From NCBI GenBank assembly GCA_009911065.1, contig QXWR01000005.1:1-64000 (forward strand): DNA of 64,000 nt, read 5' to 3'. Source of the DNA: Clostridiaceae bacterium. GTDB lineage: Bacteria > Bacillota > Clostridia > Lachnospirales > Lachnospiraceae. Below are positions 27,995 through 41,051 of this stretch, piece by piece. Numbering within the stretch: position 1 is the stretch's first letter; each line of letters opens with the position of its first letter. The notes under the pieces were generated by a model, which was not told where the DNA came from, did not search any database, and saw only the letters and a program-made list of their open reading frames with translations. The translations under genes were made by a program, and so were the position numbers.

Positions 27995-28609
27995 TTACAT
28001 AATTCGAAAGAGTCCAATCACCTTTCCCAATACATTCATATTGGTTACAATAATTGGTTCCATAGCATCATTCTCTGGTTGTAAGCGGTAATATCCATCT
28101 TCTTTATAAAATCGTTTTACTGTGGCTGAATCATCAATTAAGGCCACCACAATATCCCCATTCTCCGCAGTGGGAGTCCGCTCAACGATCACCCGGTCGC
28201 CATCAAAAATGCCTGCATTAATCATGCTGTTGCCTTTTATACGAAGCATGAACGTCTGTGTGTTGGGAAGTAAATCTGCTGGCACAGGAAAATAGTCTTC
28301 AATATTTTCTTCCGCAAGAATGGGCTGCCCGGCAGTTACTGTACCAATCATAGGAATCTGAACCATCTCCCGACGGGTAAAGCCAAACATATCATCTAAA
28401 ATCTCCATAGCTCTGGGCTTGGTAGGATCTCGCCGGATATATCCATTGCGTTCCAATGTTTCCAAATGTGAGTGAACTGATGAGGTGGACTTTAACCGTA
28501 CTGCTTCGCAGATTTCCCGCACGGTCGGCGGATATCCCTTCTTCAAAATCGTCTCTTTAATATATTCCAGTATTTCCTTTTGTTTGGATGTGATCTTTCC
28601 CTGGCTCAT
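27995..28609 (-). CDS. lexA: LexA repressor of the SOS response
   Basis: A 204-residue LexA. The N-terminal winged helix (TSKQKEILEYI to GYIRR) binds SOS boxes. The self-cleavage site is Ala93-Gly94 (VTAGQPI), with catalytic Ser128 (GNSMI) and Lys165 (SATVKRF). I start at ATG 28609 behind GGAGGAC; 28 further in-frame codons upstream lack a ribosome-binding site and cover the promoter region. Two LexA boxes lie just upstream, indicating autorepression, and it is divergent from the LysM gene, as lexA is from yneA in Bacillus. Confidence 0.97.
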   Translation of the reverse strand: MSQGKITSKQKEILEYIKETILKKGYPPTVREICEAVRLKSTSSVHSHLETLERNGYIRRDPTKPRAMEILDDMFGFTRREMVQIPMIGTVTAGQPILAEENIEDYFPVPADLLPNTQTFMLRIKGNSMINAGIFDGDRVIVERTPTAENGDIVVALIDDSATVKRFYKEDGYYRLQPENDAMEPIIVTNMNVLGKVIGLFRIM

Positions 28610-28668
28610 CTTTGTCCTCCTGATTCTCTGTAATAAAAACGTTCCATTCAATTCCCCTAATACTATAC

Positions 28669-28780
28669 TAACATATGTTCGATAAAAAAGCAAACTTTTG
28701 TTCGGAAATTTTCAAAAAAATTATTGACAAACAAATGTTCGGGTATTATAATGGGGATACGCTTACAGAACACATGTTTG
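28669..28780. promoter_or_regulatory. SOS control region with four LexA boxes
   Basis: Four sites fit the Gram-positive LexA pattern CGAAC-N4-GTTYG or its reverse: 28669-28681 (perfect except the last base), 28692-28704, 28729-28741 and 28767-28780. The first two are nearest lexA. The third lies between the -35 and -10 of the LysM gene promoter and the fourth just past its start point. This spacing should repress both divergent transcripts until RecA triggers LexA cleavage. Confidence 0.9.
28724..28752 (+). promoter_or_regulatory. Consensus promoter of the SOS LysM gene
   Basis: TTGACA (28724-28729) and TATAAT (28747-28752) are exactly 17 bp apart, a full consensus match. A LexA box fills the spacer and another lies at about +8, so the promoter should be strong but tightly held by LexA. 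Confidence 0.92.
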
Positions 28781-28827
28781 TATTCGGATGATACCTGTGG
28801 ATTATATTATACAAGGGGGAATATGTG

Positions 28828-30087
28828 ATGGACAGAAGCTTAAGAAAATACCGGCGGGCAGACTGGAACGGAAAGCGGCAGAAGTGGAGTCAGAGACAAC
28901 CATGTTTTGTGGAGCGTGGACAGAGATATGGAGGACGTTTTCAATATCAGGAGTATGAAGGGGAGTATTGGGGATATGATGATGAATCGGTTGACGAATA
29001 TGGAAGTCAGGAATATGGGAGAGAAGAGTTTGGCAATGAGAGACAAGCATACAAGAATACTGTAACGTATGACAGCTCCAAATCGTTAGGTTCTTTTGAG
29101 GAATCCGTCCCATATACGGATCAGAATTACGACAGCACCAGTTTGCACAATGATAATTTAAGATATTCCGGATATAATGGAGAGACATCCAGATATGAAG
29201 GTATGACCTATGACGAAACCAGTCCAAATTATGAGAATCCAGATTATTTAAGATATAATGAAGAAACATCTGCATATGGAGGGATGGATTACAACAGAAC
29301 CAGTTTAAACTTAAACTATGACCGCCAGAGCTATATCGTCAATGAAGAAGGGGCGTCTGCATATAAAAGTACAAACTATGGGGAAACCAGCACAAATTAT
29401 GGCAATCCAAGATATTTTGAATATGATGAAAAAACGTCTAAATATGAAAGTACAAAGTATGACGAAAATGGCAGTCAAGGTTATTTGAGATATGAAAGAG
29501 AATTATCTGGATATGAAGGTACAAGTCATGACGGAATGAGCAGTCAAGGTTATTCCGGATATGACAGGGAAACATCCAAATATAAAGGTACCAGCTATGA
29601 CAGAGCCAGTTCAAACCATGGGAGTCATTCTGTTTTTGATTTCCATGAAAAAGAACAAAACAAAAAAAGCGCATCACAGAAAAAGAAAGCGAAAAAAGTG
29701 GCTGGTAAAGCAGCCGGTAAACAACCAACAGACCAAAAAAAGAACAGCAAAATAATGGCTCTTGCAATGAAACGCCGTACACGCCGTAAAAGAATCCATA
29801 AGTTTATGGTTGCCATGTTGGTTGTATTTGCTTTTTGTTCTGGCTTCTTTGGACGTACACTTTTTGACGCATACGCCAAAGAGCAGAACGGGAATGCACC
29901 TATCCCTTATTATACCAGCATTCAGCTGGCTCCCGGAGATAATCTCTGGAAGATTGCCAACCGTTATGCTGAACAAAACGGATATACCGTTACAGAATAT
30001 GTGGAAGAGTTAAAACAGATGAACGGGCTGACAGACGGACATGTTCATTCTGGTGAATATTTGACCATTGTTTACTTTCCAGAGTGA
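28828..30087 (+). CDS. SOS-controlled LysM membrane protein, YneA-like, with Tyr-rich repeat domain
   Basis: A 419-residue protein. The last 58 residues are a LysM domain (QLAPGDNLWKIANRYAEQNG) preceded by a membrane helix (about 324-344), the layout of the SOS division inhibitor YneA, which in Bacillus is about 105 residues and also divergent from lexA. Unlike YneA it has about 320 residues on the cytoplasmic side: a basic start, an acidic Tyr/Gly region, six or seven degenerate repeats of 23-29 residues (about 101-270, pattern YDxTSxNYxNxRYxxYxxETSxYxGT), and a Lys-rich stretch before the membrane. ATG 28828 follows AAGGGGGA. Its 3' end overlaps the convergent recombinase gene by 16 bp. Division inhibition is inferred, not shown. 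Confidence 0.85.
   Translation: MDRSLRKYRRADWNGKRQKWSQRQPCFVERGQRYGGRFQYQEYEGEYWGYDDESVDEYGSQEYGREEFGNERQAYKNTVTYDSSKSLGSFEESVPYTDQNYDSTSLHNDNLRYSGYNGETSRYEGMTYDETSPNYENPDYLRYNEETSAYGGMDYNRTSLNLNYDRQSYIVNEEGASAYKSTNYGETSTNYGNPRYFEYDEKTSKYESTKYDENGSQGYLRYERELSGYEGTSHDGMSSQGYSGYDRETSKYKGTSYDRASSNHGSHSVFDFHEKEQNKKSASQKKKAKKVAGKAAGKQPTDQKKNSKIMALAMKRRTRRKRIHKFMVAMLVVFAFCSGFFGRTLFDAYAKEQNGNAPIPYYTSIQLAPGDNLWKIANRYAEQNGYTVTEYVEELKQMNGLTDGHVHSGEYLTIVYFPE
29128..29635 (+). repeat. Tyr-rich coding repeats inside the LysM gene
   Basis: Six to seven tandem units of 69-87 bases encode the motif with a leading YD/YN-x-TS, a central RY or GY, and a closing ETSxY-x-G/S-T. The units have diverged in both sequence and length, so they are old or under diversifying pressure. 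Unit 3 is the least regular. Confidence 0.75.
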
Positions 30088-31151
30088 TGATTATTTACTG
30101 TTTTTTCCCGCAGCTGAACCGCATTACGTGCGCTTCGGCGGCGTTCATCCTCCAGTGCTGCATAATGTTTTTTTGTAGTATTAACATCCGAATGCCCCAA
30201 AACATCCGCAACCAAATAAATATCCCCCGTTTCCCGATAAAGATTGGTTCCATACGTACTTCGCAACTTATGAGGAGTAATTCTCTTTAGGGGAGTGACC
30301 AATCTTGCATATTTTTTGACCAGATTTTCCACACTGCGTACAGTAATACGTTTTTTCTGAAGAGAGAGGAAGAGTGCTTTTTCATTTCCTGGCATAGCGT
30401 CAATACCAAAACGTTCATCCAAATAATCCTGCAAAGCATCCTCTACTTCCATGCCAAAATAGACCGTTACCTCTTTCCCGCCTTTTCGATGAATGTGGAT
30501 TCCCCCATTTTTAAAGTCCACATCATTGATGTCCAGTCCAACACATTCAGAGACTCGGATACCTGTTCCGAGAAGCAAAGTTAAGAGTGCCAAATCTCGA
30601 ATTTTGGTTTTATTATGAAACGCCTTTTGCTTGTCTGTAAGATTTTCCCCTTGTTCTACTTCGTCCAGAAGCAGAGCAACCTCATCTACATCCAAGCGAA
30701 TAATTTCTTTCTCATGCAATTTGGGAAGTTGTACAAGAGAAGCTGGGTTGTTTTGGAGTTTTTCATTTCGGTAAAAATAGTTATAAAAACTTTTCAGGGA
30801 AGAAATTTTTCGCATAATTCCCCGTTCTTTGTTGACGATTCCCTGATTATTATCATTAAACCGGTATTTTAGATATTCCATATATTCTTCCAGATCGCTG
30901 ACGGTAAGTTGCTCTAAATAATCCAGCCGTATCTCCATGCGGTCCAGCTTTTGGAAGAAAGGATTTTCTTTTGCAAGAAAATCAAAAAACACATGGAGAT
31001 CATAAGCATAAGCAATTCGGGTTCTGGAAGAAGTTCTCGGTTCGATTCCTCTGAAAAAATCAACACAAAAAGGAGGAAGTTCTTTTATAAGCGTTCTTAA
31101 TTTTTGGATGTTTTCAATGTCTTTTTGTTGATAATAAGGCAGTTGTTTCAA
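30072..31151 (-). CDS. Xer-like tyrosine recombinase
   Basis: A 359-residue tyrosine recombinase with an N-terminal SAM-like core-binding domain (about 20-140) and a catalytic domain. The catalytic residues are visible: Arg in LLGTGIRVSECVGL, HKLR, and LGHSDVNTTKKHY with the tyrosine nucleophile. It is larger than XerC/XerD (about 300). The start TTG 31151 overlaps the ttcA stop, so the two are translationally coupled. It is chromosomal in context, so a dimer-resolution or other domesticated role is more likely than phage integration. Its end overlaps the LysM gene. Confidence 0.88.
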   Translation of the reverse strand: MKQLPYYQQKDIENIQKLRTLIKELPPFCVDFFRGIEPRTSSRTRIAYAYDLHVFFDFLAKENPFFQKLDRMEIRLDYLEQLTVSDLEEYMEYLKYRFNDNNQGIVNKERGIMRKISSLKSFYNYFYRNEKLQNNPASLVQLPKLHEKEIIRLDVDEVALLLDEVEQGENLTDKQKAFHNKTKIRDLALLTLLLGTGIRVSECVGLDINDVDFKNGGIHIHRKGGKEVTVYFGMEVEDALQDYLDERFGIDAMPGNEKALFLSLQKKRITVRSVENLVKKYARLVTPLKRITPHKLRSTYGTNLYRETGDIYLVADVLGHSDVNTTKKHYAALEDERRRSARNAVQLREKTVNNHHSGK

Positions 31152-40454: not shown

Positions 40455-41051
40455 TTAAAAAACTTCATTCGCTCTTTTATTTTCAAAATATTCATACGCC
40501 TGACGTGTCATAGGATCTATATTTGCATTTTTCTTTTTCAGATAAGCCAAAGTTCCAGCAAGAATCTCGTACATTGTTTGATCTAAATCTTGAAATGCCA
40601 GATAACGCATTTTTTCCAAGTTTGATGCTTTATTGCGCCTCGGCTCAATATAATCTGCAATATACAGAATTTTGTCCAATATTCCCATATGCGGTTTTCC
40701 GGCTGTATGACAACGAATGGCAGAAAGAATTTCTTCATCGCAAACACCAAACTTATGTTCGGCCATCCATGCACCATACTTGGCATGAATCACTGCCGGC
40801 GCTTTCAGCTCTCCTTCTGTCAACTCAATTTTGTGTTTTTGACACTTTACAATCAATTCATTGTCACCATAACGCTTGGCACAGTCATGGAGCAGTCCTG
40901 CCAGTTCTGCCTGGTGGAGATCATATCCATATCGCATGGCCAAAGCCATACAGGTATAGGAAACGCTCAGACAATGTTCATAACGCATGGGATCAAGCTT
41001 AGACTTTAATTGTTTTCGATATGTGAAAATTTGTTCATCTATGGTAATCAT
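40455..41051 (-). CDS. yqeK: YqeK HD-domain diadenosine tetraphosphatase
   Basis: A 198-residue HD-superfamily hydrolase expected to cut Ap4A symmetrically. Metal ligands are in RYEHCLSVSYTC, LLHDCAKRY, and the later IRCHTAGKP and IADYIEPRR segments. Located between nadD and rsfS. Confidence 0.93.
   Translation of the reverse strand: MITIDEQIFTYRKQLKSKLDPMRYEHCLSVSYTCMALAMRYGYDLHQAELAGLLHDCAKRYGDNELIVKCQKHKIELTEGELKAPAVIHAKYGAWMAEHKFGVCDEEILSAIRCHTAGKPHMGILDKILYIADYIEPRRNKASNLEKMRYLAFQDLDQTMYEILAGTLAYLKKKNANIDPMTRQAYEYFENKRANEVF

Follow-up and report, generated by a model that had tools for sequence, protein, structure and literature searches.

The YneA-like gene that lies divergent from lexA in this Lachnospiraceae DNA very probably encodes the SOS-induced division inhibitor of its lineage, since its core, its divergence from lexA and its promoter recur in 19 of 24 genomes of the genus and in one outgroup. 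Judged from its sequence, the protein encoded in the window (the whole 64-kb stretch of DNA that was analysed) belongs to a known kind, a predicted SOS-controlled division inhibitor with a transmembrane helix (TM) and a LysM domain. What is new is a lineage-specific cytoplasmic extension that is extreme in one species. The preferred account, which is probable, is that of an SOS-induced YneA-type inhibitor modulated by its N-terminal arm, with the tyrosine-rich repeats of the arm as a recent, weakly constrained enlargement.

The lexA locus and its promoter

The sequence-only reading had described a gene divergent from lexA with the layout of YneA at its C-terminus and a perfect promoter containing a LexA box. 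Both descriptions held up: the open reading frame (ORF) carries one membrane helix and a LysM match, and a LexA box starts at 28728 in the spacer of a full-consensus promoter. The features of the locus are as follows.

27995-28609, minus strand: lexA, SOS repressor of 204 aa, divergent from the YneA-like gene (Pfam)
28668-28681, no strand assigned: LexA-type box CTAACATATGTTCG on the lexA side (pattern scan, one mismatch)
28691-28704, no strand assigned: LexA-type box CGAACAAAAGTTTG, as read on the minus strand (no mismatches)
28724-28752, plus strand: sigma-A type promoter TTGACA-17-TATAAT (12 of 12 consensus matches)
28728-28741, no strand assigned: LexA-type box within the promoter spacer (no mismatches, minus strand)
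28767-28780, plus strand: LexA-type box AGAACACATGTTTG 3' of the -10 (one mismatch)
28813-28819, plus strand: ribosome-binding-like AAGGGGG (by reading of the sequence)
28828-30087, plus strand: YneA-like ORF of 419 aa with a long N-terminal extension (ATG start)
30072-31151, minus strand: tyrosine recombinase, convergent with the YneA-like gene (Phage_integrase 2e-36)

An in-frame GTG lies at 28825, one codon 5' of the ATG of the YneA-like ORF. The lexA product matches Peptidase_S24 (2e-37) and LexA_DNA_bind (5.1e-26). Twenty loci were compared, from 19 genomes of the genus (window counted) and one named outgroup; lexA is divergent from the YneA-like gene in all of them, and with starts chosen by the analyst the two gene starts are 165-368 bases apart. 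In Bacillus subtilis, yneA is divergent from lexA. On the other side, the ends of the recombinase and the YneA-like gene overlap by 16 bases. The recombinase looks like a stable chromosomal neighbour, because relatives were found within the fetched stretch at 15 of 20 loci (window counted) and the 14 others are 77-91% identical to it (codirectional in L019). The five loci without one are contig ends or have short fetched flanks.

The promoter-spacer box is present in 20 of 20 loci (one substitution allowed), and TTGACAAACNNNNGTTC followed by TATAAT (TATGAT in L011) is likewise found in all 20. Orthologues also carry a box at the place matching 28691-28704, and a box-like site 3' of the -10 occurs in 18 of 20 loci, the exceptions being L017 and L019. 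Across the 64-kb window, the LexA-box pattern with at most one mismatch gave nine matches against 4.7 expected from shuffles, a count that is not significant (at least nine in 11 of 100 shuffles). The boxes are convincing because seven of the nine strand-hits (four sites) cluster within 113 bases between the genes and because they are conserved across loci. The window's other LexA-like box (CGAACATAAGTTTG, 40748-40761) lies within a 198-aa minus-strand ORF and is probably a chance match. The sole perfect CGAACNNNNGTTCG palindrome of the window's genome is at 1501-1514 of L001, 5' of a 113-aa ORF that is presumably ylxM-like and is followed by a presumably ffh-like gene; these are not obvious SOS genes. 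No recognised SOS gene was seen at the two examined loci with LexA-box patterns elsewhere in the genome.

Membrane helix and LysM core

The C-terminal core of the protein consists of three predicted elements.

29806-29865, plus strand: single transmembrane helix, about residues 327-346 (hydropathy; AlphaFold helix)
29869-29877, plus strand: AYA (residues 348-350), possible signal-peptidase I site (motif just outside the membrane)
29932-30069, plus strand: predicted extracellular LysM, residues 369-414 (Pfam LysM 24.2 bits, cut-off 20.9)

The NCBIfam YneA model NF010723 matched the last 110 residues at 9.6e-14 (51.1 bits; 47 bits for the whole protein), with an alignment spanning positions 8-84 of its 87. 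Both scores are short of the curated cut-off of 60 bits, which marks the protein as a relative, below the YneA equivalog. It is very unlikely that the gene encodes another kind of LysM membrane protein (of the spore-coat or spore-cortex type, like SafA or SpoIIIM) that sits by lexA by chance and is not a division inhibitor. A weak NCBIfam SafA match (E 0.0047, 16.8 bits) and the tyrosine-rich composition, which resembles that of some spore-coat proteins, point that way, but the YneA model fits far better, and the LexA-box promoter and divergent lexA recur at every locus. The SOS-controlled YneA-like gene proposed by the sequence-only reading is thus well supported by the YneA model, the divergent lexA and the promoter box.

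Core identity to the window protein is 47-71% in the 18 other genus orthologues and 33% in L021. The LysM motif GDxLWxIA is invariant in all 20 rows of the core alignment, including the Asp after Gly; the residue following this Asp is N, S or T. In YneA, D46, T47 and I81 are required for glycan binding, according to the available text of the source (PMC13396833).

The hydropathy peak (19-residue segment) covers residues 323-341, and the positively charged KRRTRRKRIHK lies before the helix. The predicted topology is N-in with LysM outside, and by the positive-inside rule the repeats would lie on the cytoplasmic side. By raw count, 19 of 19 genus proteins, but not L021, carry a motif of the form [ASV]xA no more than 16 residues from the GFFG-like motif of the helix; signal peptidase may cleave at this [ASV]xA motif after the helix. 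A search of one open-licence literature collection for YneA together with signal peptidase returned nothing relevant. The single-sequence AlphaFold model has a mean pLDDT of 46, with one long helix at 302-353 (block pLDDT 70-93 over 301-350); neither residues 1-300 nor the LysM received a confident structure.

Anatomy of the N-terminal arm

The membrane helix comes after about 326 residues in the window protein, versus after 13 in the shortest of the aligned genus orthologues. The sequence-only reading had put the extra residues at about 320 and had described degenerate repeats of 23-29 residues and a lysine-rich stretch, all of which agrees with the present count and with the segments below.

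28828-28881, plus strand: N-cap, residues 1-18, MDRSLRKYRRADWNGKRQ (alignment; recognisable in four sister species)
28966-29631, plus strand: repeats rich in Tyr, Ser, Gly and acidic residues, residues 47-268 (from 29164 on, six clear units of 23-29 aa)
29638-29805, plus strand: Lys/Arg-rich juxtamembrane stretch, residues 271-326, net +17 (composition)

The six units start at residues 113, 140, 169, 196, 219 and 242 (spacings 27, 29, 27, 23 and 23), and a degenerate unit starts at residue 47. Unit positions Tyr 1, Tyr 11 and Ser 9 are invariant across the six. The self-match at lag 27 amounts to 39 residues, a value reached by none of 1000 shuffles of residues 41-270 at lags 1-119, with a narrow margin (largest 38). 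At the DNA level, TRF reported a 69-nt period with 2.5 copies in the repeat-coding sequence. The charge of the arm is arranged in blocks. Residues 1-40 are basic (net +9), residues 41-270 have a net charge of -24 (15% Tyr, 14% Ser, 10% Gly, 19% Asp+Glu; Arg 5% in this middle region), and the juxtamembrane stretch is 29% Lys. Composition suggests that the arm is disordered, as does, weakly, the low pLDDT of a model built from the single sequence without an alignment. The sole Pfam match in the arm was insignificant (Cdh1, E 0.38), and a search of PDB sequences with residues 1-271 was empty up to E 1.

The sequence-only reading had proposed binding to division proteins or nucleic acid, or condensates, as candidate roles of the repeats, and avidity would be a further candidate. 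Two functional readings of such an arm can be set against this anatomy. In the first, the arm is a membrane-tethered sticker-and-spacer segment whose tyrosines (with arginines) cluster the inhibitor or co-cluster divisome proteins at the inner membrane face during the SOS response. The tyrosine content over 230 residues, the alternating charge blocks, the invariant Tyr and Ser positions and the low model confidence, which suggests disorder, are in line with it. This reading is nevertheless unlikely, given how little Arg the middle region holds, the restriction of the repeats to one species and the post hoc reading of composition. Its fullest form, in which the membrane-anchored inhibitor clusters through a multivalent Tyr-rich sticker arm and grips the divisome inside as it blocks septum synthesis outside, is to be doubted still more. 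In the second, the disordered N-terminus is a degradation handle by which an AAA+ protease (FtsH or ClpXP type) extracts the inhibitor and shortens the arrest. Probable disorder of the arm would suit such a handle, and related inhibitors are cleared by proteolysis, through CtpA and DdcP for YneA and CtpA for SosA (PMC13396833, PMC6851548). The proteases reported in the available parts of these papers are membrane-bound, though, and for SosA the proposed target of CtpA is the outer C-terminus; the handle is improbable.

Distribution among relatives

The YneA-like gene was found in 19 of the 24 genus genomes searched (window counted). The other five gave neither a YneA-like match nor a core-profile match, and two of them are 80-82% complete. 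G001 keeps lexA, and in the remaining four (G006, G014, G018 and G022) lexA was not found at 1e-40; these may possibly reflect joint loss of lexA and the inhibitor, or assembly gaps. Outside the genus, one named relative (Hominifimenecus microfluidus, 34% core identity) came from a contig scan by exact peptide patterns, which may miss near genomes.

In the wider family, the core matched at 1e-8 in 227 of 299 genomes, and 72 gave no match. Among the best 150 of the 227 matches, open frames ran to 102-264 aa, compared with 431 for the window, and 22 (window excluded) had frames of at least 170 aa; 20 of these were fetched (G145 and G193 were not). In 18 of the 20, taking an ATG or TTG preceded by a Shine-Dalgarno-like sequence as the start reduces the protein to 98-145 aa, and L035 also has such a TTG giving 190 aa. 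No start could be placed in L032 and L045. The idea of long orthologues elsewhere in the family was rejected on this count of 18 of 20, and the additional frame resembles non-coding DNA that lies upstream and includes LexA-box stretches, sometimes read against lexA.

Within the genus, longer N-termini on the predicted cytoplasmic side are confined largely to one group. In a tree of LexA plus core (20 rows; good support for 4 of 17 inner branches), the eight species with proteins of 149-419 aa form one clade (support 100/98), of which the window's species is the extreme. Orthologues outside this clade have about 98-145 aa where a start can be placed, all lengths depending on starts chosen by the analyst from Shine-Dalgarno-like sequence. 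L017 and L019 (145 aa) form a second, separate group among proteins of at least 140 aa, and that label requires 2 changes on the tree versus a shuffled mean of 6.9.

Parts of the arm can be followed through the clade. The N-cap (SLRxYRRxDWN in the window) is matched closely in L003 and L005 and more loosely in L006 and L007; in L004, L008 and L009 it could not be recognised in the alignment. Its pN/pS over 13 codons (2-14) is 0.28 in five species, against 0.31 for the core of the same species; this value is biased low, as the five of eight species were chosen for a visible motif and pS approaches saturation. For the 18 codons that precede the helix, pN/pS is 0.48 over all eight clade species versus 0.27 for the core. 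Conservation is also seen in the basic stretch that leads into the membrane, whose end (AMKRRxRRKRIHKF in the window) is similar across the clade. Between sister species, the middle of the arm gives no useful alignment. Among the closest relatives are the orthologues of G003 and G021 (L005, L006) and G011 (L003). These share 68-71% core identity, the same promoter, lexA and recombinase neighbours and a related N-cap with the window; they differ in having 190-201 aa (chosen start) and no Tyr repeats.

The sequence-only reading had described the repeats as a domain and had named in advance, as one observation that would tell against its reading, their absence in close relatives with the rest of the protein kept. 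At species level, this is what the genomes show. By reading, the repeats are absent from the 18 other genus orthologues, and a search with residues 47-268 at E 1e-4 drew a blank in the 396 other genomes of the family sample. The sample for this search was 397 genomes over 334 genera, so that unsampled sister species could carry them. The repeats occupy one locus in the window's own genome, with no second copy. A plasmid search with the whole protein gave no match, and a scan of viral contigs gave no relative of the YneA-like protein. A mobile or shared domain was rejected as an explanation, with no further copy in the own genome, family, plasmids and PDB sequences searched. As far as these genomes go, the Tyr repeats are a species-level elaboration and not a conserved domain. 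Two unverified phage-collection records from human faeces (L063, MT835478.1; L064, MT835555.1) contain lexA, a YneA-like core and a recombinase; they are probably mislabelled bacterial scaffolds, because lexA and the recombinase are also on both records.

Constraint on the repeats

A near-neutral origin has to be weighed against function for the repeats. Under this alternative, slippage expanded a permissive disordered linker whose frame is kept only for the essential downstream TM-LysM, with no added function. It is quite possible, though not the reading preferred here. Confinement to one species among the genomes searched and the unalignable middle of the arm agree with it, as does the comparison between units: pooled over the six, pN is 0.32 and pS 0.48 (ratio 0.65), and for U4-U5 pN (0.38) exceeds pS (0.08). 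Nucleotide differences between units are spread nearly evenly over the codon positions (106/95/112). GC3 is 0.29 in residues 108-268 and 0.31 in 269-326 versus 0.41-0.45 in 1-107 and 327-419, and the low value of the repeats also fits slippage. In B. subtilis, GFP-YneA (an N-terminal fusion by its name) still localises according to the available part of PMC13396833, so the core tolerates N-terminal cargo.

Simulated neutral decay, which assumes a star tree from the majority consensus of the six units, speaks against pure slippage. The units keep their reading frame and their tyrosines: total Tyr is 22, where neutral decay gives 15.8 on average (P 0.007; 0.014 stop-free). Invariant columns number 3 versus 0.74 (P 0.028; 0.033 stop-free), and the five best columns also exceed the simulation (P 0.021; 0.028 stop-free). 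Mean pairwise unit identity is 8.8/20 versus 7.5 (P 0.030; 0.047 stop-free). Columns conserved in at least five of six units were not significant against the same simulation (P 0.15; 0.18 stop-free). A first neutral count (0 of 5000 simulations) was discarded as post hoc, its positions having been picked after the repeats were seen. The long acidic and basic blocks of the arm are a further point against slippage. The repeats appear to be under weak to moderate constraint, which is compatible with a function requiring tyrosine or with a young expansion.

Proposed mechanism and known inhibitors

The preferred reading, a YneA-type inhibitor with a modulatory arm, can be put as a sequence of events. 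From the positions of the sites, LexA would repress the YneA-like gene at the boxes in and around its strong promoter, and probably lexA as well, until DNA damage lifts repression. The protein would then insert N-in/C-out. By analogy with B. subtilis YneA, its helix would dock on the septal peptidoglycan synthase FtsW and its outer LysM would bind new glycan, blocking septum synthesis. Cleavage at the AxA-type motif may uncouple LysM from the membrane and so end the arrest. In one clade the cytoplasmic N-terminus would have become a longer, probably disordered arm whose membrane-proximal segment is basic and which carries a recurring N-cap in several species. In the window's species, the middle of the arm would have grown by tandem duplication of a unit of about 69 nt into the Tyr-rich repeats. 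The arm most likely modulates the inhibitor, through contact with the membrane or the divisome, through dwell time or through turnover, a role that the disordered arm of ChiZ may play as well. The repeats would have enlarged the arm recently and under weak constraint, without forming a new domain for catalysis or binding.

That the arm modulates the inhibitor is plausible because of the literature on TM, LysM and arm in YneA and ChiZ. YneA of B. subtilis is SOS-induced with a single TM and an extracellular LysM, as predicted for the window protein; its model, with 87 positions, could not accommodate a long N-terminal extension such as the one before the helix of the window protein. YneA is encoded beside lexA (PMC6851548), its TM binds FtsW TM7 and its LysM binds glycan, and both are needed (PMC13396833). 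ChiZ (Rv2719c) of Mycobacterium tuberculosis combines a disordered cytoplasmic N-terminus, a TM and a LysM, and its gene lies near lexA and is induced by DNA damage (PMC7355643, PMC3989709, PMC6851548). The claim that such an architecture had never been described was therefore too strong (PMC7355643). The 64-residue disordered arm of ChiZ together with the TM is sufficient for filamentation (PMC7355643), and its LysM appears dispensable (PMC3989709), so that the two precedents, in the parts of these papers available, conflict on the need for LysM (PMC13396833, PMC3989709). The ChiZ arm differs from that of the window protein in composition (13 Arg, 12 Pro, and a single Trp and a single Tyr as the aromatic residues) and, compared by its published description rather than its sequence, has no Tyr repeats. 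SosA of Staphylococcus aureus and DivS of Corynebacterium glutamicum are also single-TM SOS division inhibitors beside lexA, but are without a LysM domain in the available account (PMC6851548).

Implications

Division arrest after DNA damage in gut Clostridia seems little described. A search of one open-licence literature collection found no papers joining YneA with disorder and none on a Lachnospiraceae LexA/SOS division inhibitor. The LexA of Clostridioides difficile is reportedly the subject of a published study. The exact role of ChiZ is termed an open question in the part of PMC7355643 available. If the sticker reading of the arm were true, DNA damage would induce clusters of inhibitor that act on the divisome from both sides. 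The family series of proteins (about 100-145, 149-201 and 419 aa), whose promoter and core are conserved throughout, forms a natural set, suited to asking what effect a disordered cytoplasmic arm has on a TM-LysM inhibitor.
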